NCBI GenBank assembly: GCA_951799425.1
Contig: OX637394.1
Location: forward strand, 53,013,142 to 53,077,141
Reading direction: 5' to 3'
Origin: Ilex aquifolium
Taxonomy: Eukaryota; Streptophyta; Magnoliopsida; Aquifoliales; Aquifoliaceae
Length of the DNA stretch: 64,000 nucleotides
Shown in pieces: positions 17,654-43,229 of the stretch. The notes under the pieces are model-generated. The model saw only the letters and a program-made list of their open reading frames with translations. It did not search any database and was not told the origin of the DNA. A program made the position numbers and the translations under genes. How positions within the stretch are numbered: position 1 is the stretch's first letter; the number at the start of each line of letters is the position of its first letter.

Positions 17654-17890
17654 TGTGACACCCCAAATTTCCGGGGGTCCTTTATTAACCGTTGACCATC
17701 CGTCAACCCGCGGAAATACTCGTGATAGTCGTATAACCCGACACCACGTCACTCACATGCTTTTAATCAGATTTACCATCCACAAGGTCAATTATACCTC
17801 CATTTATGTCCATTTATGTCATAGAAACCAAAGAAAACAAAGCCCAAAAGCATGGCTAAGCATTTTGAAAATTTCAAGTTTTTGGAAAAA

Positions 17891-18281
17891 CCTTCCGGAA
17901 GGTCGATATACACCTACCGGAAGGTCGCTGAAGGAACTGTTACATGAAAAGGATCAATTTCAAGAACTTCCGGAAGGTCGACATCAGTAGCAAAAACCTT
18001 CCGGAAGGTCCATTCCAGTAGCCAAAACCTTCCGGAAGGTTCATTCCAGAAAACAAACCTTCCGGAAGAACTCGGCAGTCAAAAAGAAACCCAAGGCAAA
18101 ACCTTCCGGAAGGTCCACTCCAGTAGACAAGTTCTTCCGGTAGGTTTTACTCCAGTAGCTAAAATCTTCCGGAAGTTTCATTCCAGTGGGCAAAACCTTC
18201 CGGAAGGTATTAGCTGTGAGCAAGGCAAGCTGGGGTTTTTAGCAAAACCTTCCGGAAGGCCGACACACACCTTCCGGTAGG
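17891..18281. repeat. Palindromic CCTTCCGGAAGG minisatellite in LTR1
   Basis: About twelve perfect or near-perfect copies of the self-complementary 12-mer CCTTCCGGAAGG start at 17891, 17913, 17966, 17997, 18028, 18058, 18102, 18133, 18165, 18196, 18248 and 18270. Most are 30-32 bp apart, with linkers like TCCATTCCAGTAGCAAAA. The first and last pairs are both 22 bp apart and are direct copies of each other. The array lies in R/U5 of the transcript. Each unit could form a hairpin or pair with other units, and each carries a CCGG site for CG/CHG methylation. The function is unknown. Confidence 0.9.
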
Positions 18282-19873
18282 TTTTCAAACTGTGAGCATA
18301 AAAATGGATTTCTTCCCCCTCCAAACCATCCTTAAAGCTACCCCATACGCTCCAAACTCATTCAATACATGTTTAATGAGATTTTCCATATAATACCCAA
18401 CTCATACAATCTCTATTACAATTCATCCCATAATATATATACATCAAAATGGAATTTTGTTAAAGGTTTTACAAAACTTAAACTAAGGCCACAAGCCGGC
18501 CCCCTTCATGCTTGATGCTCTCCAAATGAGCCATCCGCCGGAGCAAAACCCACACCTGAAATGTTTTTCCCATAAAGGGTGAGCCACGCTCAATAGGGTA
18601 TCTCCTAGAGAGGCTACTCCCCAACCTAAATGCATATGAAATGTCACATGCTATCAATCAATAATCCACAACAAGAATATATTCCATGTTAAAACGTGTA
18701 ATGTCATGCTATGAAATGAGGTGAGACTCACTCATGCACATCAACCGAGCCCTTCCCGGCTCCTCTACACATGCAAGTGCCAATGTGTACCAATCCGTCA
18801 TTTATGTTCCACATCAAATGACATTTCATTCTAGGGTCTTTGTAAGGGGTGGATGTTCATGGACTCACACCAAAGGTCACCCAACCTACACGGAATTCAT
18901 GGACTTCCACCAACGGTTCCGCGTACACCGACACACTTTATGGGCTCTTATACCAACGGAGTGCGTATCCAATCACCGGGTCTCTCACCCGAGGGATTTT
19001 CTAGCCCTTCTTACTACCCCAACCCTATCAACATATAAACCATTCAACTCGTCTAGGTCATCGACCCATATTACCCGAGCTCACTCGTCATCCACCATGT
19101 GTGGTGAAGACAAATAACCATGCACACACACCTCCTAAAATGCGATGTTCCCGTGCATATGAAATGTGGTGCTCCATTGCAACACTAACACAATGTTCGA
19201 TATGGCATGAGTGACATATGAACATTCTCAACACATTCCTCATATTCCATGGCAAAATCATATCAAAAGCATATAATTCCCATAATACAAATTTCAAGCA
19301 TGTTATCAACATACTAAAATTTCAAGGCATATATATAAACACATAACATGCCCACAATTTCACATAACACATGAATTTACATTGGGTTCATTTCACATAT
19401 CCAATTCATAGAAATCACAATTAGTAACTTCTAATTATTCATCCAAGTTAGGATTTCCTTTACCCATTTCAATACCCAATTCACCCAATTTCACAACAAT
19501 AGGCAAGAGACACATAGGCTATCATCCTACCCATTCCATAAAAACATTATAGGCTTGGAATAAACCTTAGTAGGAAGAAACCCTACCTCTTGAAGCGTGA
19601 GGAACGACCAAGGGAAGTTCCAAGACCCGATTCAAGCAAAAACCCTCACTTCCCGAAAATCCCGTACCTTGACCTTCGGTAAAACTTGTGCTTTTTGGTA
19701 TAGCCGCGTAGCCCTCGATGAGTAGAGCGACTTTAATTCTTGGATTGAATGGATCCGAGCTTCGTAGCCTTCTAGATCGTAGAGAGAAGTGAAGATTTTC
19801 AAGCTCTCTCCCTCTCCTCTTTTCTATCGGCTGAACGGCAAGAAGAATGGGGGAAAAATCTGATTTTCCCCCC

Positions 19874-19881
19874 TTTATATA
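19874..19881 (-). promoter_or_regulatory. Predicted LTR1 TATA box
   Basis: The minus strand reads TATATAAA followed by a G run, about 390 bp from the start of the LTR. This is the best core-promoter match in the LTR. A near-perfect inverted repeat (GGGGGAAAAATC / GATTTTCCCCC, 19849-19873) lies just downstream, at the expected start region. LTR1 is the 3' LTR of the block, so transcription from this copy would run out into the left satellite arm. Confidence 0.7.
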
Positions 19882-20269
19882 CCCTTGGAACACTTGGCCC
19901 ACAACGCGCCACACGGCCTCTCTTTTCCGGGTCCGTTTTAACCCCGAAACGATTAAATTTCGTCCCGATTTAAGTTTAAAATATTTTTATTTCACTTGTC
20001 TCTAATATTTCCCCAAATTTGGAAACTTTATAAAAATTTCGTGTACAGGGTCACCCGGGCCCCGTTCGTCTCGTAAAACGCGAAAAATCCGACTATCTCG
20101 GAATTCCACGAAATTTGACGTGGTAACTAGATTTCGCGAGACGAATCCAACGGTGAGGTCCGTTTCGTCATCCGAGTTCTAGAAAAATTCAGGTTTACAA
20201 CCTGTACTGTAGTGGCAATTTACTGTTTTGCCCTTTTTCACAAAGGTTGAAATTTTCTCGGGTTTTACA

Positions 20270-20282
20270 TTCTTCCCCCCTT
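20270..20282 (-). other. Polypurine tract, copy 1
   Basis: The minus strand reads AAGGGGGGAAGAA immediately before the TGTAAAACCC start of LTR1. This is the standard plus-strand DNA primer of Ty3/gypsy elements. It lies 81 bp past the gag-pol stop codon. Confidence 0.93.
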
Positions 20283-20363
20283 AAAAGAATTTCGTCCCCG
20301 AAATTGACACACTCATGCACACACAATTACACGCATATGCAACAGTCATATAACACTAAATGA

Positions 20364-23300
20364 CTATAAGAATGTACCTCCATCCTCAAATAAGAAAGGA
20401 TAGTTGGCACGTATGGTGTCCTCACGCTCCCATGTTGCCTCCTCCACTCCTCGGTGCTGCCACAACACCTTCACTAGCCTCACGGTCTTGCCTCGCAAAA
20501 CCTGCTCTCGGCTATCCATGACACGCACTGGTCCCTCCTCGAAGGTCCCATCCGCATCAACTATGAGCTCGCCCCAATCCACAACATGTGTCGGATCTGG
20601 AGTATACTTCCGGAGCATGGAGACATGGAATACGGCGTGAACACCCGATAAAGTTGGCGGTAACGCCAATCTGTAAGCCACAGTGCCAACTCTCTCAAGC
20701 ACCTCAAAGGGCCCAATATACCTCGGCGACAGTTTTCCCCGCTTGCCGAATCTGATCACCCCTCTCTTAGGCATCACCTTTAAGAAGACGTGGTCTCCCA
20801 CCTCAAATTCCAGAGGCCGCCGCCGCCTATCGGCGTAACTCTTCTGCCGGCTCTGAGCCGTGAGAAGACGCTTCCTTATCAGGTTCACCTTCTCCGAGGT
20901 GTCTCTAATCAAGTCTGGACCCGTAGAGGGTCTTTCCCCAACTTCAGTCCAACAAACCGGAGAACGACAAGGCCTCCCATAAAGCGCCTCATAGGGTGCC
21001 ATCCGTATGCTCGCCTGATAACTGTTATTGTAGGCGAATTCCACTAAGGGCAAATGCTCTTCCCAGCTACCCTTGAGATCTAGGACGCATGCCCGTAGCA
21101 TGTCCTCTAATGTCTGGATGGTCCTCTCCGACTGACCGTCCGTTTGGGGATGGTAGGCTGTGCTCATCCTCAACTGAGTCCCCATGGCTCGCTGGAAACT
21201 CTCCCAAAAGTGAGCCGTAAACCTGGGATCCCGATCCGATACTATAGACACGGGTACCCCATGCAACCGGACTATCTCCCTTATGTACAACCTGCAGAAT
21301 TCCTCCAGAGTGAAGGTCATCCGCACCGCCAAAAAGTGTGCCGACTTCGTAAGCCGGTCCACTATCACCCACACCGCATCATGTCCCCGTGATGTCCGTG
21401 GCAAGTGGGTCACAAAGTCCATTGTGATGTGCTCCCACTTCCACTCAGCCACTTCCAAGGGCTGGAGCAACCCTGCTGGCCTCTGGTGCTCGGCTTTAAT
21501 CTGCTGACATGTGAGGCATCTACTGACAAAGTCGCCAATTTGCCTCTTCATTCCGCTCCAGTAATACTGGCGACGAAGATCATGATACATCTTCGTGCCG
21601 CCTGGGTGCACCGCAAAACGAGAGCAATGGAACTCCCTGAGGATCTCCTCTCTCAGCTCCGCCGACTGGGGAACCACTACCCTTCCCCTAAACCGAAGAC
21701 TGTCATCCGAGTGAATGGCCCAGCCCTCGTCACCAGTACCCGCCTGCACTCGGTCCCTGATAGATGATAACTCTGAGTCCTGTCTCTGTGACTCGATCAC
21801 TCTGCTCAGTAGGGAAGGCGTAGCCACCAAACTCCCTAAAACACCCTGAGTCCGACCCCGATAATGCAGCCCAAATTGGCCCACGGCCTCAAGCATCCGC
21901 CACTCCCGGGAAGCCACACTAGCTAAGACACCTCGTGACTTCCGACTAAGTGCGTCAGCCACCACATTTGCCTTACCGGGGTGGTAATGCAAAGTGAAGT
22001 CATAGTCTTCTAGGTACTCCATCCACCTACGTTGCCTCATGTTGAGGTCCCGTTGAGTGAAGATGTACTTCAGACTTTTGTGGTCCGAAAACACTTCAAA
22101 TCGTTCACCATACAAATAGTGGCGCCAAGCCTTTAAGGCAAAGACAACGGCCGCCAACTCCATGTCATGCGTGGGGTAATTCTGCTCGTGATTCTTCAAC
22201 TGTCGAGAACCATAAGCCACCACTCTCCCGGACTGCATCAAGACACAACCCAGTCCGTCTTTAGAGGCATCGCAATATATCGTGTAGTTTTGTCCCCTTT
22301 CTGGAACAATCAAGATAGGAGCTGAAGTGAGTCTCCTCTTTAGTTCTTGGAATGCCTTCTCACACGAATCATTCCACTCGAACTTGACCTCCTTCCGGGT
22401 CAATCTAGTCATAGGTGCGGCGAGTCGGGAGAAGTCCTCGATGAACCTCCGGTAATACCCTGCCAATCCCAAGAAACTACGTATCTCGAAGACTGACCTT
22501 GGCCTCTCCCAGCTCATAACTGCCTCGACTTTCTCCGGATCAACTGATACCCCCGAAGCCGACACCACGTGTCCCAAAAATTTCACCTCCGTAAGCCAAA
22601 ATTCACACTTGCTGAACTTGGCGTACAACTGGTGGTCCCTCAAGGTCTGGAGAACAATCCTTAAGTGACCCTCATGCTCCTCCTCTGTCTTGGAGTAGAT
22701 CAGGATGTCATCAACAAACACTACGACAAACTGATCTAAATAGGGCTGGAACACCCTATGCATGAGATCCATAAATGCCGCCGGGGCATTCGTCAACCCA
22801 AATGGCATCACCGTGAACTCGAAATGCCCGTACCGCGTTCTGAACGCCGTCTTAGGGATATCTGACTCCCTAATCCTCAACTGATGGTAGCCCGTGCGGA
22901 GATCTATTTTTGAATAGACCCGCGCTCCCCTCAGCTGATCAAACAGATCATCGATCCTTGGCAAAGGGTACCTATTCTTGATGGTGACCCGGTTCAACTG
23001 CCGATAGTCTATACACAATCGAAGGGTCTTATCCTTCTTCTTGGCAAACAGCACCGGAGCGCCCCAAGGTGAGGTACTCGGTCTAATAAAGCCCTTGTCC
23101 AATAATTCTTGTAATTGAACCTTGAGTTCTTGCAACTCAGCTGGCGCCATCCTATGTGGAGTCATAGAAATGGGTGAAGTACCCGGATGCAACTCAACGC
23201 TAAAGTCCACATCCCTATGGGGAGGTAATCCCGGTAACTCGTCCGGAAAAACGTCCTCATATTCACACACCACCCGAGGTAGACCCAATTCTTGTCTCGC

Positions 23301-24950
23301 CTCGTCCTCCAGGGTAAGGCTCGCAAGCCAACCCATCAATTGCCCATGCCATCGTGAATCATACACGACTTGAGGTAGAGCATCATGCTTTTCCCCCTGA
23401 AACTTGAAACAAACACCGTCCGGTGTATAGGCGGTGACCCTCTTCCTGTCACAATCAATAACGACCCGATACGCCGCCAACCAGTCCATCCCAAGGATGA
23501 CATCGAATTCCGACATGTCCATAACCCTAAGGTCCACGGTGAGTAGAATCCCCGAGATCTCTAGCTCACAACCCCGACATATCTGATTCACACACACCCT
23601 AGCTCCTAGGGGTGAATTCACATATAACGGCTCCTCCAAGGTATCAACCTCTAAGCCCAAATCCCTCACACATGATGCAGAAATGAATGAATGTGATGCA
23701 CCAGAATCAAATAACACTTTAGTCCATAGGCGAGAAAGTAGAAATGTACCCTGAATGACTGACTGGTCCACTGGCTCAACCTGAGGTGTAATGGCGTAGA
23801 CACGCCCCTGGGTCCCCGAAGTCCCGGCCTGCATGTCCTGTCCTCGGCCTCGACCCATGCCTTGGCTCATCTGGCCCGACTGCGGAGTCCCCGCTCGAAA
23901 GGTGGTAGGGGCCTGAGTAGCGCCCTGGAACTGATACTGGTTTCCCTGGCCCGTGGTGGGGTAGGGAGGAACAAAGCGTGTCTGCGACTGCCCCACTGAT
24001 GACTGGGACTGAGGTGTCCCATAGCTCTGGGATCCTTGCCTCTGCGGACAATCCCGCTTCATATGCCCCGGTTGGTGGCAATGGAAACATGTCTTCTGGC
24101 CCGCCTGGTAGGTAGTCCTGAAGTTTCTCCCGCCTTGGGAAAGCTGACCTTGGCCTTGGCCTTGATAGCCGCGGCCCTGTCCTTGAGGAGCAGAGGTCCT
24201 CTGTTTCTTCCCCGAACTAGAAGAAGAGGATTGGCCCTCCTTCTTCTTATCCTTAGCACCCGCCTCACGGATGCTTCGAGCATCGTCCACCTCCCTCTCA
24301 ATGGCCATAGCTGTCTCGACCATAGAGTCCAAGTCTTGCAGGCGGAGGCCCACAATCTTTCCCCGGATGGATAGCTTCAACCCATCCTCAAACCTTCTTA
24401 CCTTGGCCATATCCGTGGCCACGTAATCATCAGCAAATCGGGCTAATTCGGTGAACTTAGCCACATACTCCATCACTGTCATTGACCCTTGCTTCAAATC
24501 TAGAAACTCGCGGGCCTTTGCATGTCGAACGGCCGTTGGGAAATATTTACCCATGAAGAGCTCCTTGAACTCTCCCCATGTCATGGCCTCTAAGTTCTTC
24601 GAGGCCGTCACCCAATCCCACCACAATTGGGCTTCTCCTTCTAGCTGGAATGCAGCTAGCCTTATCTTAGTAGCGTCTGAGGTGACCTCCATCGCCCCTA
24701 AGATCTTGTTGACTTGCCGGAACCAATGGTCGGCCACCATCGGGTCCGCCCCTCCCATGAAGACTGGAGGTTTGTGTGCTTTAAACTGTTGGAGGTTACT
24801 CGCGCCTCCATGTCCGGCATTTGCACTAGCTTGTGCAACAGTAGCCGCCATTAGGCCCATGGTTTCCGTAAACGCTCGTTGATCGAAGACCGGTGGTGGT
24901 TGGTTATTGTTCCGCCCACCGCCTCGACGTCCTCTTCTTCCACTTGCCAT
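20364..24950 (-). CDS. gag-pol: Gag-Pol polyprotein with chromodomain, copy 1 (1,528 aa, intact)
   Basis: Single-ORF polyprotein of a chromovirus. The start Met is preceded directly by an in-frame TAG, which fixes the start. By residue: basic Gly/Arg-rich N terminus 5-13; Gag core about 75-220; zinc knuckle C288-C291-H296-C301; Gln/Gly-rich linker to about 380; aspartic protease with DSGA at 415-418 and ILGMDW at 485-490; reverse transcriptase about 600-780 with D683 and the VDD at 746-748; RNase H about 888-1003 with D894, E931, D956 and D999. Integrase follows, with zinc residues H1108, H1115, C1145, C1148 and the DD35E triad D1178, D1239, E1275. A GPF motif is at 1413-1415 and a chromodomain about 1475-1520 (W1497, W1507). 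All key residues are present and there is no stop or frameshift, so the copy may be autonomous. Gag forms the particle and Pol makes and integrates cDNA. Activity is not shown. Confidence 0.97.
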
Positions 24951-25290
24951 CTACACACAAGTCAAATGGCAATGGCACAACAACTTAGTATCCCTAGATA
25001 GGGATCAAAGTTAAAACGCTCAAATCTTTCTCATTGTCTCACTAGTAGAGCGTATGCCTCCAATAGTGGACCCTTTCGCTTTGAACCTTCCCGTTCATTT
25101 GCTTTCCCACTCCCAAGGTTAAGTTCTCTAACCCTAGTGTGTCCATTTCCATACACATTTTACCATGCATATAATACACATACCACATATCACATAACAT
25201 GTATCAATTTAAGCACATAACATGTAATGTACAATGAATGCAATGGTCTAAACCCATGCCCCATCAAGCCCTAGGTAAATCGCATACCTA
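24951..25290 (-). other. Untranslated leader between PBS and gag-pol, copy 1
   Basis: This 340-bp non-coding leader lies between the primer-binding site and the start codon. It is AT-rich with runs such as CATATAATACACATACCACA near the PBS. The packaging signal of such elements usually lies here or in the adjacent U5. I see no further recognisable element. Confidence 0.8.
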
Positions 25291-25303
25291 GGCTCTGATA
25301 CCA
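25291..25303 (-). other. Primer-binding site for initiator Met tRNA, copy 1
   Basis: The minus strand reads TGGTATCAGAGCC, complementary to the 3' end of plant initiator methionine tRNA, the usual primer of plant Ty3/gypsy elements. It is separated from LTR2 by the three bases AGC (plus strand). Confidence 0.93.
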
Positions 25304-25543
25304 AGCTGTGACACCCCAAATTTCCGGGGGTCCTTTATTAACCGTTGACCATCCGTCAACCCGCGGAAATACTCGTGATAGTCGTATAACCCGACACCAC
25401 GTCACTCACATGCTTTTAATCAGATTTACCATCCACAAGGTCAATTATACCTCCATTTATGTCCATTTATGTCATAGAAACCAAAGAAAACAAAGCCCAA
25501 AAGCATGGCTAAGCATTTTGAAAATTTCAAGTTTTTGGAAAAA

Positions 25544-25934
25544 CCTTCCGGAAGGTCGATATACACCTACCGGAAGGTCGCTGAAGGAACTGTTACATGA
25601 AAAGAATCAATTTCAAGAACTTCCGGAAGGTCGACATCAGTAGCAAAAACCTTCCGGAAGGTCCATTCCAGTAGCCAAAACCTTCCGGAAGGTTCATTCC
25701 AGAAAACAAACCTTCCGGAAGAACTCGGCAGTCAAAAAGAAACCCAAGGCAAAACCTTCCGGAAGGTCCACTCCAGTAGACAAGTTCTTCCGGTAGGTTT
25801 TACTCCAGTAGCTAAAATCTTCCGGAAGTTTCATTCCAGTGGGCAAAACCTTCCGGAAGGTATTAGCTGTGAGCAAGGCAAGCTGGGGTTTTTAGCAAAA
25901 CCTTCCGGAAGGCCGACACACACCTTCCGGTAGG
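25544..25934. repeat. Palindromic minisatellite in LTR2
   Basis: This is the same set of CCTTCCGGAAGG units with the same spacing as in LTR1, offset 7,653 bp. Unit number is unchanged, so the array has not expanded or contracted since the copies separated. Confidence 0.9.
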
Positions 25935-27922: not shown

Positions 27923-27935
27923 TTCTTCCCCCCTT
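27923..27935 (-). other. Polypurine tract, copy 2
   Basis: The 13-purine tract directly adjoins LTR2 and is identical to that of copy 1. Confidence 0.93.
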
Positions 27936-28016
27936 AAAAGAATTTCGTCCCCGAAATTGACACACTCATGCACACACAATTACACGCATATGCAACAGTC
28001 ATATAACACTAAATGA

Positions 28017-31000
28017 CTATAAGAATGTACCTCCATCCTCAAATAAGAAAGGATAGTTGGCACGTATGGTGTCCTCACGCTCCCATGTTGCCTCCTCCAC
28101 TCCTCGGTGCTGCCACAACACCTTCACTAGCCTCACGGTCTTGCCTCGCAAAACCTGCTCTCGGCTATCCATGACACGCACTGGTCCCTCCTCGAAGGTC
28201 CCATCCGCATCAACTATGAGCTCGCCCCAATCCACAACATGTGTCGGATCTGGAGTATACTTCCGGAGCATGGAGACATGGAATACGGCGTGAACACCCG
28301 ATAAAGTTGGCGGTAACGCCAATCTGTAAGCCACAGTGCCAACTCTCTCAAGCACCTCAAAGGGCCCAATATACCTCGGCGACAGTTTTCCCCGCTTGCC
28401 GAATCTGATCACCCCTCTCTTAGGCATCACCTTTAAGAAGACGTGGTCTCCCACCTCAAATTCCAGAGGCCGCCGCCGCCTATCGGCGTAACTCTTCTGC
28501 CGGCTCTGAGCCGTGAGAAGACGCTTCCTTATCAGGTTCACCTTCTCCGAGGTGTCTCTAATCAAGTCTGGACCCGTAGAGGGTCTTTCCCCAACTTCAG
28601 TCCAACAAACCGGAGAACGACAAGGCCTCCCATAAAGCGCCTCATAGGGTGCCATCCGTATGCTCGCCTGATAACTGTTATTGTAGGCGAATTCCACTAA
28701 GGGCAAATGCTCTTCCCAGCTACCCTTGAGATCTAGGACGCATGCCCGTAGCATGTCCTCTAATGTCTGGATGGTCCTCTCCGACTGACCGTCCGTTTGG
28801 GGATGGTAGGCTGTGCTCATCCTCAACTGAGTCCCCATGGCTCGCTGGAAACTCTCCCAAAAGTGAGCCGTAAACCTGGGATCCCGATCCGATACTATAG
28901 ACACGGGTACCCCATGCAACCGGACTATCTCCCTTATGTACAACCTGCAGAATTCCTCCAGAGTGAAGGTCATCCGCACCGCCAAAAAGTGTGCCGACTT
29001 CGTAAGCCGGTCCACTATCACCCACACCGCATCATGTCCCCGTGATGTCCGTGGCAAGTGGGTCACAAAGTTCATTGTGATGTGCTCCCACTTCCACTCA
29101 GCCACTTCCAAGGGCTGGAGCAACCCTGCTGGCCTCTGGTGCTCGGCTTTAATCTGCTGACATGTGAGGCATCTACTGACAAAGTCGCCAATTTGCCTCT
29201 TCATTCCGCTCCAGTAATACTGGCGACGAAGATCATGATACATCTTCGTGCCGCCTGGGTGCACCGCAAAACGAGAGCAATGGAACTCCCTGAGGATCTC
29301 CTCTCTCAGCTCCGCCGACTGGGGAACCACTACCCTTCCCCTAAACCGAAGACTGTCATCCGAGTGAATGGCCCAGCCCTCGTCACCAGTACCCGCCTGC
29401 ACTCGGTCCCTGATAGATGATAACTCTGAGTCCTGTCTCTGTGACTCGATCACTCTGCTCAGTAGGGAAGGCGTAGCCACCAAACTCCCTAAAACACCCT
29501 GAGTCCGACCCCGATAATGCAGCCCAAATTGGCCCACGGCCTCAAGCATCCGCCACTCCCGGGAAGCCACACTAGCTAAGACACCTCGTGACTTCCGACT
29601 AAGTGCGTCAGCCACCACATTTGCCTTACCGGGGTGGTAATGCAAAGTGAAGTCATAGTCTTCTAGGTACTCCATCCACCTACGTTGCCTCATGTTGAGG
29701 TCCCGTTGAGTGAAGATGTACTTCAGACTTTTGTGGTCCGAAAACACTTCAAATCGTTCACCATACAAATAGTGGCGCCAAGCCTTTAAGGCAAAGACAA
29801 CGGCCGCCAACTCCATGTCATGCGTGGGGTAATTCTGCTCGTGATTCTTCAACTGTCGAGAACCATAAGCCACCACTCTCCCGGACTGCATCAAGACACA
29901 ACCCAGTCCGTCTTTAGAGGCATCGCAATATATCGTGTAGTTTTGTCCCCTTTCTGGAACAATCAAGATAGGAGCTGAAGTGAGTCTCCTCTTTAGTTCT
30001 TGGAATGCCTTCTCACACGAATCATTCCACTCGAACTTGACCTCCTTCCGGGTCAATCTAGTCATAGGTGCGGCGAGTCGGGAGAAGTCCTCGATGAACC
30101 TCCGGTAATACCCTGCCAATCCCAAGAAACTACGTATCTCGAAGACTGACCTTGGCCTCTCCCAGCTCATAACTGCCTCGACTTTCTCCGGATCAACTGA
30201 TACCCCCGAAGCCGACACCACGTGTCCCAAAAATTTCACCTCCGTAAGCCAAAATTCACACTTGCTGAACTTGGCGTACAACTGGTGGTCCCTCAAGGTC
30301 TGGAGAACAATCCTTAAGTGACCCTCATGCTCCTCCTCTGTCTTGGAGTAGATCAGGATGTCATCAACAAACACTACGACAAACTGATCTAAATAGGGCT
30401 GGAACACCCTATGCATGAGATCCATAAATGCCGCCGGGGCATTCGTCAACCCAAATGGCATCACCGTGAACTCGAAATGCCCGTACCGCGTTCTGAACGC
30501 CGTCTTAGGGATATCTGACTCCCTAATCCTCAACTGATGGTAGCCCGTGCGGAGATCTATTTTTGAATAGACCCGCGCTCCCCTCAGCTGATCAAACAGA
30601 TCATCGATCCTTGGCAAAGGGTACCTATTCTTGATGGTGACCCGGTTCAACTGCCGATAGTCTATACACAATCGAAGGGTCTTATCCTTCTTCTTGGCAA
30701 ACAGCACCGGAGCGCCCCAAGGTGAGGTACTCGGTCTAATAAAGCCCTTGTCCAATAATTCTTGTAATTGAACCTTGAGTTCTTGCAACTCAGCTGGCGC
30801 CATCCTATGTGGAGTCATAGAAATGGGTGAAGTACCCGGATGCAACTCAACGCTAAAGTCCACATCCCTATGGGGAGGTAATCCCGGTAACTCGTCCGGA
30901 AAAACGTCCTCATATTCACACACCACCCGAGGTAGACCCAATTCTTGTCTCGCCTCGTCCTCCAGGGTAAGGCTCGCAAGCCAACCCATCAATTGCCCAT

Positions 31001-32603
31001 GCCATCGTGAATCATACACGACTTGAGGTAGAGCATCATGCTTTTCCCCCTGAAACTTGAAACAAACACCGTCCGGTGTATAGGCGGTGACCCTCTTCCT
31101 GTCACAATCAATAACGACCCGATACGCCGCCAACCAGTCCATCCCAAGGATGACATCGAATTCCGACATGTCCATAACCCTAAGGTCCACGGTGAGTAGA
31201 ATCCCCGAGATCTCTAGCTCACAACCCCGACATATCTGATTCACACACACCCTAGCTCCTAGGGGTGAATTCACATATAACGGCTCCTCCAAGGTATCAA
31301 CCTCTAAGCCCAAATCCCTCACACATGATGCAGAAATGAATGAATGTGATGCACCAGAATCAAATAACACTTTAGTCCATAGGCGAGAAAGTAGAAATGT
31401 ACCCTGAATGACTGACTGGTCCACTGGCTCAACCTGAGGTGTAATGGCGTAGACACGCCCCTGGGTCCCCGAAGTCCCGGCCTGCATGTCCTGTCCTCGG
31501 CCTCGACCCATGCCTTGGCTCATCTGGCCCGACTGCGGAGTCCCCGCTCGAAAGGTGGTAGAGGCCTGAGTAGCGCCCTGGAACTGATACTGGTTTCCCT
31601 GGCCCGTGGTGGGGTAGGGAGGAACAAAGCGTGTCTGCGACTGCCCCACTGATGACTGGGACTGAGGTGTCCCATAGCTCTGGGATCCTTGCCTCTGCGG
31701 ACAATCCCGCTTCATATGCCCCGGTTGGTGGCAATGGAAACATGTCTTCTGGCCCACCTGGTAGGTAGTCCTGAAGTTTCTCCCGCCTTGGGAAAGCTGA
31801 CCTTGGCCTTGGCCTTGATAGCCGCGGCCCTGTCCTTGAGGAGCAGAGGTCCTCTGTTTCTTCCCCGAACTAGAAGAAGAGGATTGGCCCTCCTTCTTCT
31901 TATCCTTAGCACCCGCCTCACGGATGCTTCGAGCATCGTCCACCTCCCTCTCAATGGCCATAGCTGTCTCGACCATAGAGTCCAAGTCTTGCAGGCGGAG
32001 GCCCACAATCTTTCCCCGGATGGATAGCTTCAACCCATCCTCAAACCTTCTTACCTTGGCCATATCCGTGGCCACGTAATCATCAGCAAATCGGGCTAAT
32101 TCGGTGAACTTAGCCACATACTCCATCACTGTCATTGACCCTTGCTTCAAATCTAGAAACTCGCGGGCCTTTGCATGTCGAACGGCCGTTGGGAAATATT
32201 TACCCATGAAGAGCTCCTTGAACTCTCCCCATGTCATGGCCTCTAAGTTCTTCGAGGCCGTCACCCAATCCCACCACAATTGGGCTTCTCCTTCTAGCTG
32301 GAATGCAGCTAGCCTTATCTTAGTAGCGTCTGAGGTGACCTCCATCGCCCCTAAGATCTTGTTGACTTGCCGGAACCAATGGTCGGCCACCATCGGGTCC
32401 GCCCCTCCCATGAAGACTGGAGGTTTGTGTGCTTTAAACTGTTGGAGGTTACTCGCGCCTCCATGTCCGGCATTTGCACTAGCTTGTGCAACAGTAGCCG
32501 CCATTAGGCCCATGGTTTCCGTAAACGCTCGTTGATCGAAGACCGGTGGTGGTTGGTTATTGTTCCGCCCACCGCCTCGACGTCCTCTTCTTCCACTTGC
32601 CAT
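28017..32603 (-). CDS. gag-pol: Gag-Pol polyprotein, middle copy, with altered integrase catalytic residue
   Basis: This copy is full length (1,528 aa) with no stop or frameshift. It differs from copies 1 and 3 at three residues that I see: A283V just before the zinc knuckle, P348S in the Gln/Gly-rich linker, and D1178N in the integrase. D1178 lies in the conserved ITMDFV segment and is the first acidic residue of the DD35E triad. The codon change is GAC to AAC on the minus strand (plus-strand C to T at 29072). From established integrase chemistry, loss of this metal-binding Asp should abolish strand transfer, so this copy is probably not autonomous although its ORF looks intact. The protease, reverse transcriptase and RNase H motifs are unchanged. 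The leader and start context match copy 1. Confidence 0.96.
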
Positions 32604-32943
32604 CTACACACAAGTCAAATGGCAATGGCACAACAACTTAGTATCCCTAGATAGGGATCAAAGTTAAAACGCTCAAATCTTTCTCATTGTCTCACTAGTA
32701 GAGCGTATGCCTCCAATAGTGGACCCTTTCGCTTTGAACCTTCCCGTTCATTTGCTTTCCCACTCCCAAGGTTAAGTTCTCTAACCCTAGTGTGTCCATT
32801 TCCATACACATTTTACCATGCATATAATACACATACCACATATCACATAACATGTATCAATTTAAGCACATAACATGTAATGTACAATGAATGCAATGGT
32901 CTAAACCCATGCCCCATCAAGCCCTAGGTAAATCGCATACCTA
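32604..32943 (-). other. Untranslated leader, copy 2
   Basis: This leader has the same length as in copy 1, and I saw no difference on reading. Confidence 0.8.
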
Positions 32944-32956
32944 GGCTCTGATACCA
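32944..32956 (-). other. Primer-binding site, copy 2
   Basis: TGGTATCAGAGCC on the minus strand, 3 bp from LTR3, unchanged from copy 1. Confidence 0.93.
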
Positions 32957-33196
32957 AGCTGTGACACCCCAAATTTCCGGGGGTCCTTTATTAACCGTTG
33001 ACCATCCGTCAACCCGCGGAAATACTCGTGATAGTCGTATAACCCGACACCACGTCACTCACATGCTTTTAATCAGATTTACCATCCACAAGGTCAATTA
33101 TACCTCCATTTATGTCCATTTATGTCATAGAAACCAAAGAAAACAAAGCCCAAAAGCATGGCTAAGCATTTTGAAAATTTCAAGTTTTTGGAAAAA

Positions 33197-33587
33197 CCTT
33201 CCGGAAGGTCGATATACACCTACCGGAAGGTCGCTGAAGGAACTGTTACATGAAAAGAATCAATTTCAAGAACTTCCGGAAGGTCGACATCAGTAGCAAA
33301 AACCTTCCGGAAGGTCCATTCCAGTAGCCAAAACCTTCCGGAAGGTTCATTCCAGAAAACAAACCTTCCGGAAGAACTCGGCAGTCAAAAAGAAACCCAA
33401 GGCAAAACCTTCCGGAAGGTCCACTCCAGTAGACAAGTTCTTCCGGTAGGTTTTACTCCAGTAGCTAAAATCTTCCGGAAGTTTCATTCCAGTGGGCAAA
33501 ACCTTCCGGAAGGTATTAGCTGTGAGCAAGGCAAGCTGGGGTTTTTAGCAAAACCTTCCGGAAGGCCGACACACACCTTCCGGTAGG
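33197..33587. repeat. Palindromic minisatellite in LTR3
   Basis: The palindrome array is identical in order and spacing to the other LTRs, with the same imperfect units (CCTACCGGAAGG second, CTTCCGGTAGG last). Confidence 0.9.
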
Positions 33588-35179
33588 TTTTCAGACTGTG
33601 AGCATAAAAATGGATTTCTTCCCCCTCCAAACCATCCTTAAAGCTACCCCATACGCTCCAAACTCATTCAATACATGTTTAATGAGATTTTCCATATAAT
33701 ACCCAACTCATACAATCTCTATTACAATTCATCCCATAATATATATACATCAAAATGGAATTTTGTTAAAGGTTTTACAAAACTTAAACTAAGGCCACAA
33801 GCTGGCCCCCTTCATGCTTGATGCTCTCCAAATGAGCCATCCGCCGGAGCAAAACCCACACCTGAAATGTTTTTCCCATAAAGGGTGAGCCACGCTCAAT
33901 AGGGTATCTCCTAGAGAGGCTACTCCCCAACCTAAATGCATATGAAATGTCACATGCTATCAATCAATAATCCACAACAAGAATATATTCCATGTTAAAA
34001 CGTGTAATGTCATGCTATGAAATGAGGTGAGACTCACTCATGCACATCAACCGAGCCCTTCCCGGCTCCTCTACACATGCAAGTGCCAATGTGTACCAAT
34101 CCGTCATTTATGTTCCACATCAAATGACATTTCATTCTAGGGTCTTTGTAAGGGGTGGATGTTCATGGACTCACACCAAAGGTCACCCAACCTACACGGA
34201 ATTCATGGACTTCCACCAACGGTTCCGCGTACACCGACACACTTTATGGGCTCTTATACCAACGGAGTGCGTATCCAATCACCGGGTCTCTCACCCGAGG
34301 GATTTTCTAGCCCTTCTTACTACCCCAACCCTATCAACATATAAACCATTCAACTCGTCTAGGTCATCGACCCATATTACCCGAGCTCACTCGTCATCCA
34401 CCATGTGTGGTGAAGACAAATAACCATGCACACACACCTCCTAAAATGCGATGTTCCCGTGCATATGAAATGTGGTGCTCCATTGCAACACTAACACAAT
34501 GTTCGATATGACATGAGTGACATATGAACATTCTCAACACATTCCTCATATTCCATGGCAAAATCATATCAAAAGCATATAATTCCCATAATACAAATTT
34601 CAAGCATGTTATCAACATACTAAAATTTCAAGGCATATATATAAACACATAACATGCCCACAATTTCACATAACACATGAATTTACATTGGGTTCATTTC
34701 ACATATCCAATTCATAGAAATCACAATTAGTAACTTCTAATTATTCATCCAAGTTAGGATTTCCTTTACCCATTTCAATACCCAATTCACCCAATTTCAC
34801 AACAATAGGCAAGAGACACATAGGCTATCATCCTACCCATTCCATAAAAACATTATAGGCTTGGAATAAACCTTAGTAGGAAGAAACCCTACCTCTTGAA
34901 GCGTGAGGAACGACCAAGGGAAGTTCCAAGACCCGATTCAAGCAAAAACCCTCACTTCCCGAAAATCCCGTACCTTGACCTTCGGTAAAACTTGTGCTTT
35001 TTGGTATAGCCGCGTAGCCCTCGATGAGTAGAGCGACTTTAATTCTTGGATTGAATGGATCCGAGCTTCGTAGCCTTCTAGATCGTAGAGAGAAGTGAAG
35101 ATTTTCAAGCTCTCTCCCTCTCCTCTTTTCTATCGGCTGAACGGCAAGAAGAATGGGGGAAAAATCTGATTTTCCCCCC

Positions 35180-35187
35180 TTTATATA
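35180..35187 (-). promoter_or_regulatory. Predicted LTR3 TATA box (would drive copy 2)
   Basis: The TATATAAA on the minus strand is intact in the LTR upstream of the middle copy, which carries the integrase substitution. RNA from here could still be packaged and mobilised by proteins from other copies, if any are active; that is inference. Confidence 0.7.
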
Positions 35188-35576
35188 CCCTTGGAACACT
35201 TGGCCCACAACGCGCCACACGGCCTCTCTTTTCCGGGTCCGTTTTAACCCCGAAACGATTAAATTTCGTCCCGATTTAAGTTTAAAATATTTTTATTTCA
35301 CTTGTCTCTAATATTTCCCCAAATTTGGAAACTTTATAAAAATTTCGTGTACAGGGTCACACCGGGCCCCGTTCGTCTCGTAAAACGCGAAAAATCCGAC
35401 TATCTCGGAATTCCACGAAATTTGACGTGGTAACTAGATTTCGCGAGACGAATCCAACGGTGAGGTCCGTTTCGTCATCCGAGTTCTAGAAAAATTCAGG
35501 TTTACAACCTGTACTGTAGTGGCAATTTACCGTTTTGCCCTTTTTCACAAAGGTTGAAATTTTCTCGGGTTTTACA

Positions 35577-35589
35577 TTCTTCCCCCCTT
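35577..35589 (-). other. Polypurine tract, copy 3
   Basis: The 13-purine tract directly adjoins LTR3 and is identical to those of the other copies. Confidence 0.93.
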
Positions 35590-35670
35590 AAAAGAATTTC
35601 GTCCCCGAAATTGACACACTCATGCACACACAATTACACGCATATGCAACAGTCATATAACACTAAATGA

Positions 35671-38600
35671 CTATAAGAATGTACCTCCATCCTCAAATAA
35701 GAAAGGATAGTTGGCACGTATGGTGTCCTCACGCTCCCATGTTGCCTCCTCCACTCCTCGGTGCTGCCACAACACCTTCACTAGCCTCACGGTCTTGCCT
35801 CGCAAAACCTGCTCTCGGCTATCCATGACACGCACTGGTCCCTCCTCGAAGGTCCCATCCGCATCAACTATGAGCTCGCCCCAATCCACAACATGTGTCG
35901 GATCTGGAGTATACTTCCGGAGCATGGAGACATGGAATACGGCGTGAACACCCGATAAAGTTGGCGGTAACGCCAATCTGTAAGCCACAGTGCCAACTCT
36001 CTCAAGCACCTCAAAGGGCCCAATATACCTCGGCGACAGTTTTCCCCGCTTGCCGAATCTGATCACCCCTCTCTTAGGCATCACCTTTAAGAAGACGTGG
36101 TCTCCCACCTCAAATTCCAGAGGCCGCCGCCGCCTATCGGCGTAACTCTTCTGCCGGCTCTGAGCCGTGAGAAGACGCTTCCTTATCAGGTTCACCTTCT
36201 CCGAGGTGTCTCTAATCAAGTCTGGACCCGTAGAGGGTCTTTCCCCAACTTCAGTCCAACAAACCGGAGAACGACAAGGCCTCCCATAAAGCGCCTCATA
36301 GGGTGCCATCCGTATGCTCGCCTGATAACTGTTATTGTAGGCGAATTCCACTAAGGGCAAATGCTCTTCCCAGCTACCCTTGAGATCTAGGACGCATGCC
36401 CGTAGCATGTCCTCTAATGTCTGGATGGTCCTCTCCGACTGACCGTCCGTTTGGGGATGGTAGGCTGTGCTCATCCTCAGCTGAGTCCCCATGGCTCGCT
36501 GGAAACTCTCCCAAAAGTGAGCCGTAAACCTGGGATCCCGATCCGATACTATAGACACGGGTACCCCATGCAACCGGACTATCTCCCTTATGTACAACCT
36601 GCAGAATTCCTCCAGAGTGAAGGTCATCCGCACCGCCAAAAAGTGTGCCGACTTCGTAAGCCGGTCCACTATCACCCACACCGCATCATGTCCCCGTGAT
36701 GTCCGTGGCAAGTGGGTCACAAAGTCCATTGTGATGTGCTCCCACTTCCACTCAGCCACTTCCAAGGGCTGGAGCAACCCTGCTGGCCTCTGGTGCTCGG
36801 CTTTAATCTGCTGACATGTGAGGCATCTACTGACAAAGTCGCCAATTTGCCTCTTCATTCCGCTCCAGTAATACTGGCGACGAAGATCATGATACATCTT
36901 CGTGCCGCCTGGGTGCACCGCAAAACGAGAGCAATGGAACTCCCTGAGGATCTCCTCTCTCAGCTCCGCCGACTGGGGAACCACTACCCTTCCCCTAAAC
37001 CGAAGACTGTCATCCGAGTGAATGGCCCAGCCCTCGTCACCAGTACCCGCCTGCACTCGGTCCCTGATAGATGATAACTCTGAGTCCTGTCTCTGTGACT
37101 CGATCACTCTGCTCAGTAGGGAAGGCGTAGCCACCAAACTCCCTAAAACACCCTGAGTCCGACCCCGATAATGCAGCCCAAATTGGCCCACGGCCTCAAG
37201 CATCCGCCACTCCCGGGAAGCCACACTAGCTAAGACACCTCGTGACTTCCGACTAAGTGCGTCAGCCACCACATTTGCCTTACCGGGGTGGTAATGCAAA
37301 GTGAAGTCATAGTCTTCTAGGTACTCCATCCACCTACGTTGCCTCATGTTGAGGTCCCGTTGAGTGAAGATGTACTTCAGACTTTTGTGGTCCGAAAACA
37401 CTTCAAATCGTTCACCATACAAATAGTGGCGCCAAGCCTTTAAGGCAAAGACAACGGCCGCCAACTCCATGTCATGCGTGGGGTAATTCTGCTCGTGATT
37501 CTTCAACTGTCGAGAACCATAAGCCACCACTCTCCCGGACTGCATCAAGACACAACCCAGTCCGTCTTTAGAGGCATCGCAATATATCGTGTAGTTTTGT
37601 CCCCTTTCTGGAACAATCAAGATAGGAGCTGAAGTGAGTCTCCTCTTTAGTTCTTGGAATGCCTTCTCACACGAATCATTCCACTCGAACTTGACCTCCT
37701 TCCGGGTCAATCTAGTCATAGGTGCGGCGAGTCGGGAGAAGTCCTCGATGAACCTCCGGTAATACCCTGCCAATCCCAAGAAACTACGTATCTCGAAGAC
37801 TGACCTTGGCCTCTCCCAGCTCATAACTGCCTCGACTTTCTCCGGATCAACTGATACCCCCGAAGCCGACACCACGTGTCCCAAAAATTTCACCTCCGTA
37901 AGCCAAAATTCACACTTGCTGAACTTGGCGTACAACTGGTGGTCCCTCAAGGTCTGGAGAACAATCCTTAAGTGACCCTCATGCTCCTCCTCTGTCTTGG
38001 AGTAGATCAGGATGTCATCAACAAACACTACGACAAACTGATCTAAATAGGGCTGGAACACCCTATGCATGAGATCCATAAATGCCGCCGGGGCATTCGT
38101 CAACCCAAATGGCATCACCGTGAACTCGAAATGCCCGTACCGCGTTCTGAACGCCGTCTTAGGGATATCTGACTCCCTAATCCTCAACTGATGGTAGCCC
38201 GTGCGGAGATCTATTTTTGAATAGACCCGCGCTCCCCTCAGCTGATCAAACAGATCATCGATCCTTGGCAAAGGGTACCTATTCTTGATGGTGACCCGGT
38301 TCAACTGCCGATAGTCTATACACAATCGAAGGGTCTTATCCTTCTTCTTGGCAAACAGCACCGGAGCGCCCCAAGGTGAGGTACTCGGTCTAATAAAGCC
38401 CTTGTCCAATAATTCTTGTAATTGAACCTTGAGTTCTTGCAACTCAGCTGGCGCCATCCTATGTGGAGTCATAGAAATGGGTGAAGTACCCGGATGCAAC
38501 TCAACGCTAAAGTCCACATCCCTATGGGGAGGTAATCCCGGTAACTCGTCCGGAAAAACGTCCTCATATTCACACACCACCCGAGGTAGACCCAATTCTT

Positions 38601-40257
38601 GTCTCGCCTCGTCCTCCAGGGTAAGGCTCGCAAGCCAACCCATCAATTGCCCATGCCATCGTGAATCATACACGACTTGAGGTAGAGCATCATGCTTTTC
38701 CCCCTGAAACTTGAAACAAACACCGTCCGGTGTATAGGCGGTGACCCTCTTCCTGTCACAATCAATAACGACCCGATACGCCGCCAACCAGTCCATCCCA
38801 AGGATGACATCGAATTCCGACATGTCCATAACCCTAAGGTCCACGGTGAGTAGAATCCCCGAGATCTCTAGCTCACAACCCCGACATATCTGATTCACAC
38901 ACACCCTAGCTCCTAGGGGTGAATTCACATATAACGGCTCCTCCAAGGTATCAACCTCTAAGCCCAAATCCCTCACACATGATGCAGAAATGAATGAATG
39001 TGATGCACCAGAATCAAATAACACTTTAGTCCATAGGCGAGAAAGTAGAAATGTACCCTGAATGACTGACTGGTCCACTGGCTCAACCTGAGGTGTAATG
39101 GCGTAGACACGCCCCTGGGTCCCCGAAGTCCCGGCCTGCATGTCCTGTCCTCGGCCTCGACCCATGCCTTGGCTCATCTGGCCCGACTGCGGAGTCCCCG
39201 CTCGAAAGGTGGTAGGGGCCTGAGTAGCGCCCTGGAACTGATACTGGTTTCCCTGGCCCGTGGTGGGGTAGGGAGGAACAAAGCGTGTCTGCGACTGCCC
39301 CACTGATGACTGGGACTGAGGTGTCCCATAGCTCTGGGATCCTTGCCTCTGCGGACAATCCCGCTTCATATGCCCCGGTTGGTGGCAATGGAAACATGTC
39401 TTCTGGCCCGCCTGGTAGGTAGTCCTGAAGTTTCTCCCGCCTTGGGAAAGCTGACCTTGGCCTTGGCCTTGATAGCCGCGGCCCTGTCCTTGAGGAGCAG
39501 AGGTCCTCTGTTTCTTCCCCGAACTAGAAGAAGAGGATTGGCCCTCCTTCTTCTTATCCTTAGCACCCGCCTCACGGATGCTTCGAGCATCGTCCACCTC
39601 CCTCTCAATGGCCATAGCTGTCTCGACCATAGAGTCCAAGTCTTGCAGGCGGAGGCCCACAATCTTTCCCCGGATGGATAGCTTCAACCCATCCTCAAAC
39701 CTTCTTACCTTGGCCATATCCGTGGCCACGTAATCATCAGCAAATCGGGCTAATTCGGTGAACTTAGCCACATACTCCATCACTGTCATTGACCCTTGCT
39801 TCAAATCTAGAAACTCGCGGGCCTTTGCATGTCGAACGGCCGTTGGGAAATATTTACCCATGAAGAGCTCCTTGAACTCTCCCCATGTCATGGCCTCTAA
39901 GTTCTTCGAGGCCGTCACCCAATCCCACCACAATTGGGCTTCTCCTTCTAGCTGGAATGCAGCTAGCCTTATCTTAGTAGCGTCTGAGGTGACCTCCATC
40001 GCCCCTAAGATCTTGTTGACTTGCCGGAACCAATGGTCGGCCACCATCGGGTCCGCCCCTCCCATGAAGACTGGAGGTTTGTGTGCTTTAAACTGTTGGA
40101 GGTTACTCGCGCCTCCATGTCCGGCATTTGCACTAGCTTGTGCAACAGTAGCCGCCATTAGGCCCATGGTTTCCGTAAACGCTCGTTGATCGAAGACCGG
40201 TGGTGGTTGGTTATTGTTCCGCCCACCGCCTCGACGTCCTCTTCTTCCACTTGCCAT
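35671..40257 (-). CDS. gag-pol: Gag-Pol polyprotein with chromodomain, copy 3 (intact)
   Basis: The predicted protein appears identical to copy 1 over all 1,528 residues and retains D1178. At least one silent difference exists (CCTCAGCTGAG at about 36477 against CCTCAACTGAG in copy 1). This copy sits next to the outer 5' LTR (LTR4), so it has the conventional promoter arrangement of a complete element, LTR4-int-LTR3. Together with copy 1 it is a candidate functional source of Gag, protease, reverse transcriptase and integrase. The chromodomain at the C terminus resembles the Tekay type (conserved VKVLW and EATWE segments), known in the family to bias integration toward methylated-histone heterochromatin. 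The ORF start is again fixed by an in-frame TAG directly upstream. Confidence 0.97.
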
Positions 40258-40597
40258 CTACACACAAGTCAAATGGCAATGGCACAACAACTTAGTATCC
40301 CTAGATAGGGATCAAAGTTAAAACGCTCAAATCTTTCTCATTGTCTCACTAGTAGAGCGTATGCCTCCAATAGTGGACCCTTTCGCTTTGAACCTTCCCG
40401 TTCATTTGCTTTCCCACTCCCAAGGTTAAGTTCTCTAACCCTAGTGTGTCCATTTCCATACACATTTTACCATGCATATAATACACATACCACATATCAC
40501 ATAACATGTATCAATTTAAGCACATAACATGTAATGTACAATGAATGCAATGGTCTAAACCCATGCCCCATCAAGCCCTAGGTAAATCGCATACCTA
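40258..40597 (-). other. Untranslated leader, copy 3
   Basis: This leader has the same length as in copy 1, and I saw no difference on reading. It leads into the intact copy 3 ORF. Confidence 0.8.
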
Positions 40598-40610
40598 GGC
40601 TCTGATACCA
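40598..40610 (-). other. Primer-binding site, copy 3
   Basis: TGGTATCAGAGCC on the minus strand, 3 bp from LTR4, unchanged from the other copies. Confidence 0.93.
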
Positions 40611-40850
40611 AGCTGTGACACCCCAAATTTCCGGGGGTCCTTTATTAACCGTTGACCATCCGTCAACCCGCGGAAATACTCGTGATAGTCGTATAACCCG
40701 ACACCACGTCACTCACATGCTTTTAATCAGATTTACCATCCACAAGGTCAATTATACCTCCATTTATGTCCATTTATGTCATAGAAACCAAAGAAAACAA
40801 AGCCCAAAAGCATGGCTAAGCATTTTGAAAATTTCAAGTTTTTGGAAAAA

Positions 40851-41241
40851 CCTTCCGGAAGGTCGATATACACCTACCGGAAGGTCGCTGAAGGAACTGT
40901 TACATGAAAAGGATCAATTTCAAGAACTTCCGGAAGGTCGACATCAGTAGCAAAAACCTTCCGGAAGGTCCATTCCAGTAGCCAAAACCTTCCGGAAGGT
41001 TCATTCCAGAAAACAAACCTTCCGGAAGAACTCGGCAGTCAAAAAGAAACCCAAGGCAAAACCTTCCGGAAGGTCCACTCCAGTAGACAAGTTCTTCCGG
41101 TAGGTTTTACTCCAGTAGCTAAAATCTTCCGGAAGTTTCATTCCAGTGGGCAAAACCTTCCGGAAGGTATTAGCTGTGAGCAAGGCAAGCTGGGGTTTTT
41201 AGCAAAACCTTCCGGAAGGCCGACACACACCTTCCGGTAGG
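40851..41241. repeat. Palindromic minisatellite in LTR4
   Basis: The palindrome array in the outer 5' LTR would be part of the 5' leader of copy 3 RNA, about 1.6-2 kb from the predicted transcription start. Confidence 0.9.
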
Positions 41242-42833
41242 TTTTCAGACTGTGAGCATAAAAATGGATTTCTTCCCCCTCCAAACCATCCTTAAAGCTA
41301 CCCCATACGCTCCAAACTCATTCAATACATGTTTAATGAGATTTTCCATATAATACCCAACTCATACAATCTCTATTACAATTCATCCCATAATATATAT
41401 ACATCAAAATGGAATTTTGTTAAAGGTTTTACAAAACTTAAACTAAGGCCACAAGCTGGCCCCCTTCATGCTTGATGCTCTCCAAATGAGCCATCCGCCG
41501 GAGCAAAACCCACACCTGAAATGTTTTTCCCATAAAGGGTGAGCCACGCTCAATAGGGTATCTCCTAGAGAGGCTACTCCCCAACCTAAATGCATATGAA
41601 ATGTCACATGCTATCAATCAATAATCCACAACAAGAATATATTCCATGTTAAAACGTGTAATGTCATGCTATGAAATGAGGTGAGACTCACTCATGCACA
41701 TCAACCGAGCCCTTCCCGGCTCCTCTACACATGCAAGTGCCAATGTGTACCAATCCGTCATTTATGTTCCACATCAAATGACATTTCATTCTAGGGTCTT
41801 TGTAAGGGGTGGATGTTCATGGACTCACACCAAAGGTCACCCAACCTACACGGAATTCATGGACTTCCACCAACGGTTCCGCGTACACCGACACACTTTA
41901 TGGGCTCTTATACCAACGGAGTGCGTATCCAATCACCGGGTCTCTCACCCGAGGGATTTTCTAGCCCTTCTTACTACCCCAACCCTATCAACATATAAAC
42001 CATTCAACTCGTCTAGGTCATCGACCCATATTACCCGAGCTCACTCGTCATCCACCATGTGTGGTGAAGACAAATAACCATGCACACACACCTCCTAAAA
42101 TGCGATGTTCCCGTGCATATGAAATGTGGTGCTCCATTGCAACACTAACACAATGTTCGATATGGCATGAGTGACATATGAACATTCTCAACACATTCCT
42201 CATATTCCATGGCAAAATCATATCAAAAGCATATAATTCCCATAATACAAATTTCAAGCATGTTATCAACATACTAAAATTTCAAGGCATATATATAAAC
42301 ACATAACATGCCCACAATTTCACATAACACATGAATTTACATTGGGTTCATTTCACATATCCAATTCATAGAAATCACAATTAGTAACTTCTAATTATTC
42401 ATCCAAGTTAGGATTTCCTTTACCCATTTCAATACCCAATTCACCCAATTTCACAACAATAGGCAAGAGACACATAGGCTATCATCCTACCCATTCCATA
42501 AAAACATTATAGGCTTGGAATAAACCTTAGTAGGAAGAAACCCTACCTCTTGAAGCGTGAGGAACGACCAAGGGAAGTTCCAAGACCCGATTCAAGCAAA
42601 AACCCTCACTTCCCGAAAATCCCGTACCTTGACCTTCGGTAAAACTTGTGCTTTTTGGTATAGCCGCGTAGCCCTCGATGAGTAGAGCGACTTTAATTCT
42701 TGGATTGAATGGATCCGAGCTTCGTAGCCTTCTAGATCGTAGAGAGAAGTGAAGATTTTCAAGCTCTCTCCCTCTCCTCTTTTCTATCGGCTGAACGGCA
42801 AGAAGAATGGGGGAAAAATCTGATTTTCCCCCC

Positions 42834-42841
42834 TTTATATA
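42834..42841 (-). promoter_or_regulatory. Predicted LTR4 TATA box (would drive copy 3)
   Basis: The TATATAAA on the minus strand lies in the outer 5' LTR. This is the promoter expected to start genomic RNA of copy 3, and possibly read-through RNA of the whole trimer. Confidence 0.7.
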
Positions 42842-43229
42842 CCCTTGGAACACTTGGCCCACAACGCGCCACACGGCCTCTCTTTTCCGGGTCCGTTTTA
42901 ACCCCGAAACGATTAAATTTCGTCCCGATTTAAGTTTAAAATATTTTTATTTCACTTGTCTCTAATATTTCTCCAAATTTGGAAACTTTATAAAAATTTC
43001 GTGTACAGGGTCACCCGGGGCCCGTTCGTCTCGTAAAACGCGAAAAATCCGACTATCTCGGAATTCCACGAAATTTGACGTGGTAACTAGATTTCGCGAG
43101 ACGAATCCAACGGTGAGGTCCGTTTCGTCATCCGAGTTCTAGAAAAATTCAGGTTTACAACCTGTACTGTAGTGGCAATTTACCGTTTTGCCCTTTTTCA
43201 CAAAGGTTAAAATTTTCTCGGGTTTTACA

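Follow-up and report, generated by a model that had tools for sequence, protein, structure and literature searches.

Tandem insertions of long terminal repeat (LTR) retrotransposons, in which neighbouring units share their inner LTRs and the whole lies in one target-site duplication (TSD), were described as TLI1 and TLI2 in the IDENTAM survey (PMC11899658). According to the accessible part of that paper they are common in rice, a single genome of which yielded 28 clear cases, and occur also in Arabidopsis, almond and cotton; both LTR exchange and tandem insertion were judged possible. An array of this kind lies in the genome of holly, Ilex aquifolium (800 Mb, 103 contigs), in a stretch of 64,000 nucleotides of contig OX637394.1 (C4:53013142-53077141) referred to here as the window. 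Like the arrays in the accessible text of the survey it has alternating LTRs and interiors, shared inner LTRs, a 5-bp TSD and recent LTRs, and it is formed by a gypsy element, as most of those are (with Tekay enriched in rice). We consider it likely, with a probability of about 0.8, that a single insertion was later multiplied in place by exchange between LTRs to give a trimer.

Four LTRs (L1 to L4) alternate with three interiors (I1 to I3) between positions 17654 and 43229, with an LTR at each end and a period of 7,653 bp. In a self-comparison of the window this offset gave an overlap of 17.9 kb at 99.88% identity. L1, L2, L3 and L4 measure 2,616, 2,616, 2,617 and 2,616 bp and each interior 5,037 bp. 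ACTTT is duplicated at the outer ends alone. At the inner junctions of this three-unit array the LTR directly adjoins the polypurine tract (PPT) side (TTCTTCCCCCC) and the primer binding site (PBS) side (GATACCAAGC) with zero bases between, and a check of these junctions for duplications or foreign bases found none. The preliminary description had placed the whole order inside a single perfect ACTTT duplication, with the inner LTRs abutting PBS and PPT; both statements are exact to the base. When the insert and one ACTTT were removed in silico, a satellite 39-mer resulted that has 78 exact occurrences genome-wide, and the 179/200-bp spacing of the satellite subunits was preserved across the rejoined flanks. 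Since the empty site is restored with its spacing kept, the insertion was clean. The array is thus a tandem LTR-retrotransposon insertion, with alternation of LTRs and interiors, shared inner LTRs, a single TSD and a recoverable empty site.

The units are not base-identical copies, since private substitutions are found in every LTR and in I2 and I3 (there are none in I1). Variable positions number 10/2,617 in the LTR and 4/5,037 in the interior (p=0.008), and the interiors differ from each other by 1-4/5,037. Eight LTR changes are private: two in L1, one in L2, two in L3 (one of them an inserted base) and three in L4. The other two are shared. A299, a G-to-A change, occurs in L2 and L3, and T844 in L3 and L4. 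Genome-wide, 2 of 160 G-or-A matches to the 23-base context of A299 carry the A, and these are exactly L2 and L3; the count takes exact-context matches, so that LTRs changed elsewhere in the 23-base stretch are uncounted. T844 accounts for 14 of 1,134 exact-context matches, two being L3 and L4 and twelve lying elsewhere. Across the four LTRs, columns 299 and 844 show all four gametes (GC, AC, AT and GT), which calls for exchange between LTRs or for repeated mutation.

In the proposed history one Ty3/gypsy element would have inserted once into subtelomeric satellite DNA, leaving the clean ACTTT duplication. Misaligned LTRs on sister chromatids or homologues would then have exchanged, by crossover or double-strand-break repair, to give a dimer with a hybrid middle LTR, and a second exchange would have turned the dimer into a trimer. 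The variants can be placed on this course without repeated mutation. T844 would have arisen in L4, and the middle LTR of the dimer would have combined the left part of L4 (with T844) with the right part of L1. A299 would then have arisen in this middle LTR, and an exchange with L1 between 299 and 844 would have produced L2 (A299, C844) and left L3 as A299, T844. We infer both the order, dimer before trimer, and whether crossover or repair with conversion was at work.

Other arrays of the same family bear on the mechanism. There are 467 exact PPT-LTR junctions in the genome, a count that takes the exact form and so leaves aside junctions with TTCTTTCCCCC. The first 100 of the 467 represent 93 loci, with 5 arrays among the matches listed. 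For an LTR-internal site, the first 100 of 160 matches listed represent 56 loci, 37 with at least two LTRs and 5 with three or four; array A was among both sets of matches and the window among the second. Nine arrays were examined: the window, A, B, C, D, E, C7, C8 and N. One perfect 5-bp TSD encloses seven of them (window ACTTT, A GTATA, C CAAAT, D AGTTT, E ACATT, C7 GGTAA, N CTCTG), the right-hand LTR of E terminating in TA, not CA. A TSD test is precluded for B, where the LTR is absent from the expected right end, and for C8, where the right end is rearranged. Copy-specific variants occur in eight of the nine, N being the exception.

Unequal LTR-LTR exchange predicts that a middle LTR consists of the left part of the right-hand LTR joined to the right part of the left-hand LTR. 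This is what was found in dimer E. Its five L1-only events all lie to the left (columns 18-1150) and its six L3-only events all to the right (1755-2614; p=0.002), while the middle LTR has zero private events and at every variable site matches a hybrid of the two outer LTRs exactly. Moreover, the interiors of E differ at 2/5,037 positions against 11 events between the outer LTRs (p=0.0003), and this excess of LTR over interior divergence places the duplication of E well after its insertion.

Trimer D provides evidence of a different type. The same deletion, covering the PBS and the LTR edge, is present at all three interior-LTR junctions; the outer LTR L1 beside the left TSD keeps its edge, and the AGTTT duplication surrounds the whole array. 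An element without a PBS is not reverse-transcribed in the normal way. Because reverse transcription needs the PBS, the deletion most likely followed insertion and was afterwards copied within the array. Other sequence breaks up the second interior of D; the third was read except for its middle.

The preliminary description had proposed that a single insertion was amplified by unequal LTR exchange. In-place exchange is supported by the single TSD with its restorable empty site and shared inner LTRs, by A299 solely in the two inner LTRs together with the four-gamete pattern, and by the hybrid middle LTR of E and the copied deletion of D; taken alone, the window would have been a thin basis for it.

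A rank test of whether first-only events lie left and last-only events right was applied to the four arrays (window, C, D and E) that retain both outer LTRs and show two or more events of each sort. A, C7 and N had too few events, and B and C8 lacked a usable outer LTR. With neighbouring changes merged (E 2496-2501; C 472-482 and 1180-1182; D 311-315, 356-358 and 2121-2122) and with columns 61 and 781 of D, which have three states, dropped, D gave p=0.005, E p=0.008 and the four arrays combined p=0.002; without merging, E gave p=0.002 and C p=0.18. Array C is an older case, with 28 events separating its outer LTRs and 26, over about 5,048 bp, separating its interiors. The best single breakpoint in C leaves 7 of 28 misfits (permutation p=0.04). 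In array B the three LTRs show 7 L1-only, 6 L3-only and 2 L2-only events, but since its L3 is not its outer LTR their placement was not used as evidence. Over the first 2,093 bp of the LTR, C8 has three L1-only events and one L4-only event, and its inner LTRs are identical. Its right end (C8:30.505-30.509 Mb) combines an LTR and an interior, both partial, with a further LTR and a piece of LTR in inverted orientation. A single element at C4:2.10 Mb was tried as a control and set aside, its second LTR being absent at the expected place. Near the end of contig C1 (C1:126749-157381), two copies of the element lie 22.8 kb apart with matching spacing, which suggests a segmental duplication.

Several observations weigh against exchange in place, or weaken the case for it. 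The rank test was devised with E already inspected, it was not significant for the window (p=0.40, 2 + 3 events) or for C (p=0.38), and the combined value is carried by D and E. With only 14 variable sites the evidence of the window by itself is thin. The excess of LTR over interior variation is weaker when singletons are counted per copied base (p=0.08), the LTRs being present in four copies and the interiors in three. Since column 844 is part of a CpG and T844 has a frequency of about 1% in the family (the 12 other sites), the mutation may have recurred; the four gametes might also stem from gene conversion between LTRs. The L1-only T2572 lies to the right of two L4-only sites and, if exchange took place as proposed, must postdate it. 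Finally, the inner LTRs of the window (column 299), of A (column 2412) and of D (two sites) agree with each other against both outer LTRs, and a tandem template would also give such states; under exchange in place they would stem from a change in the middle LTR of a dimer before the second exchange.

These shared inner states also fit a rival course in which the trimer existed before insertion: a tandem transcript or a cDNA, arising for instance by read-through from a one-LTR circle, would have been reverse-transcribed and integrated once. A single TSD fits this equally, the accessible part of PMC11899658 leaves it possible, and two dimers are compatible with it. The outer LTRs of dimer C7 differ at 1 site and its interiors at 2. 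Array N (C2:25.067-25.082 Mb) is a shorter relative with a period of 5.8 kb, an LTR of about 3.9 kb and an interior of about 1.95 kb; it shows zero differences in the 2,786 bp compared of each of its three LTRs, and zero between the two copies of the remaining LTR end plus interior. Neither C7 nor N has enough differences to date the duplication, and both could have been inserted as dimers. Array A had also seemed to speak for tandem insertion, as its outer LTRs differ at 1/2,620 and its inner LTRs by more. It was rejected as evidence because this excess consists mostly of 1-bp indels (4 of the 5 changes private to L3, with several also in I2), likely a local consensus error; the shared inner variant at column 2412 remains. 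Against tandem insertion in the window, outer LTRs are identical when inserted, so T844 in both L3 and L4, with L1 and L2 lacking it, needs repeated mutation or conversion, and A299 in its exact context occurs nowhere else in the genome. The outer 5' LTR of D (in element orientation) is likewise without a PBS, so that D is not reverse-transcribable as it stands, and the LTRs of E are far more diverged than its interiors. We therefore regard tandem insertion as unlikely for the window.

It is considerably less likely still that the extra units came from extrachromosomal cDNA or a one-LTR circle recombining with the resident element by homology, independently of integrase. Such events would give the same LTR-interior-LTR geometry and single TSD, they have been reported in yeast according to the accessible text of PMC11899658, and a circle derived from the same element may conceivably have been the source. 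Variants of a donor would, however, be expected, yet the exact-context A299 is confined to this array and the window interiors are nearly identical; moreover the middle LTR of E is composed of the outer LTRs of its own locus, and the inner LTRs of D share the edge deletion of L4. Least probable of all is an assembly artefact from a repeat loop walked more than once: units of 7.65 kb at such identity are difficult to assemble, the number of three interiors rests on the assembly, one unit of array A has 1-bp indels scattered through it as a consensus error would leave them, and array N has no copy-specific variant in the parts compared, but private substitutions mark every LTR of the window as well as I2 and I3, eight of the nine arrays carry such variants, and the flanks are clean in a contig that continues for some 150 kb to telomeric repeats.

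Multimers make up between 5 of 93 loci (about 1 in 19) and 5 of 37 loci with at least two matched LTRs (about 1 in 7) among the matches listed. More speculatively, this one family may be a standing system of LTR-LTR exchange in the holly genome, its multimers forming in place well after insertion where they can be dated and N and C7 perhaps inserting as dimers, with the two routes separable by the tests for hybrid LTRs and for LTR versus interior divergence. Plants are usually assigned a substitution rate of 1.3e-8 per site per year. For the window this would put insertion at roughly 90,000 and duplication at roughly 20,000 years ago, a loose hand calculation from few changes.

The coordinates are collected in Table 1. 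The element lies on the minus strand; in its own orientation the PPT reads AAGGGGGGAAGAA and the PBS TGGTATCAGAGC. We take the PBS to be of the initiator-tRNA-Met type, and the purine-rich stretch at 20270-20282 presumably serves as the PPT. An open reading frame (ORF) of 1,528 aa is open in I1, I2 and I3, so that a trimer array can remain coding. Pfam searches of the I1 ORF in three pieces found gag, aspartic protease (PR), reverse transcriptase (RT), RNase H (RH) and integrase (INT) in that order, as in Ty3/gypsy elements, to which this element belongs. It is probably a chromovirus, with Tekay a candidate lineage. A Pfam Chromo match at the C-terminus of the ORF (E=0.0031) scored 17.8 bits, below the cut-off of 25.1. 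The LTRs contain 31-bp subrepeats including the palindrome CTTCCGGAAG (17880-18300, and at the same place in L2-L4). The LTRs of C and D vary by length steps of 28-29 bp, seemingly in the same region.

Table 1. Features of the array and its flanks (window coordinates)
Feature	Position	Strand	Remarks
TSD ACTTT, left copy	17649..17653	+	sequence
LTR L1, outer, 3' LTR in element orientation	17654..20269	-	private differences at columns 635, 2572
PPT adjoining L1, plus strand TTCTTCCCCCCTT	20270..20282	-	same at 27923 and 35577
Interior I1, 5,037 bp	20270..25306	-	
I1 gag-PR-RT-RH-INT ORF, 1,528 aa	20364..24950	-	
PBS TGGTATCAGAGC, 3 nt from LTR	25292..25303	-	same in I2, I3
LTR L2, inner; A299 (window 25605) and C844	25307..27922	-	
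Interior I2; ORF 28017-32603	27923..32959	-	
LTR L3, inner; A299 (window 33258) and T844 (window 33803)	32960..35576	-	
Interior I3; ORF 35671-40257	35577..40613	-	
LTR L4, outer, 5' LTR in element orientation; G299 and T844 (window 41457)	40614..43229	-	
TSD ACTTT, right copy	43230..43234	+	sequence
Host 379-bp (200+179) satellite, left flank	1..17653	+	
Host satellite, right flank, in phase with left across insertion	43230..64000	+	

The host repeat is a 379-bp satellite built of subunits of 200 and 179 bp. Contig C4 runs on for another 151 kb past the window and terminates in TTTAGGG repeats (its final 10 kb hold 770 of them), which we take to be the telomere; this repeat and the kind of element both fit a plant. 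The satellite was found in all three 10-kb stretches read beyond the window; on this arm it is subtelomeric. On the left side (1-17653) its monomers recur in higher-order units of about five (self-match offset 1,898, 98.0%). The idea that the satellite beside the insertion is unusually diverged was rejected: besides the 78 occurrences of the rejoined 39-mer, the 28 differences of the junction monomer, many of them gap shifts of the alignment, lie within the range of 3-45.

It had been suggested that the element became a tandem repeat and may show how retroelements seed satellites. This finds no support here, as none of the nine arrays exceeds four interior segments (a number reached in C8, where one is partial) and the site was already satellite. 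A satellite with the element as its unit would be a long array of many units; the window holds three interiors. A comparison of LTR and interior with 3.4 kb of the satellite found no similarity beyond chance (best E about 1). With three units, and with a surrounding satellite that is older and dissimilar, there is no support for an element en route to a satellite. Nor is there support for the idea that such arrays are rarely caught intact, in view of the 28 clear rice cases in the accessible part of PMC11899658 and the 5 arrays at 93 loci among the matches listed here.

Among known links between retrotransposons and tandem repeats, maize CRM1TR and CRM4TR likewise have retrotransposon sequence in tandem; as far as the available text of PMC3648361 goes, their monomers are sub-kilobase segments in long arrays, whereas here there are three whole-element units. 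Satellites of Lathyrus sativus likewise connect LTR elements with tandem repeats, but in the part of PMC7004042 at hand it is short arrays inside the elements that expand. Tandem arrays are also described for terminal-repeat retrotransposons in miniature (TRIMs), which are not known to be coding. The L3I2 and L5I4 forms in the accessible part of PMC4717578 likewise have several LTRs and interiors in one TSD, confirmed there by sequencing; those elements are miniature, in contrast to the full-length coding element described here. The structure of the holly array is therefore of an already published kind, and what we add, a modest contribution, is evidence from the sequences of this family that points to in-place exchange. 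The variants of outer and inner LTRs, the hybrid middle LTR and the copied deletion favour it over tandem insertion, and the same LTR-variant test can be applied to any long-read genome. The 2025 survey, in its accessible part, leaves the formation route of tandem LTR elements open and is undecided between the two; the holly trimer, set in a subtelomeric satellite, differs in carrying internal evidence of exchange.

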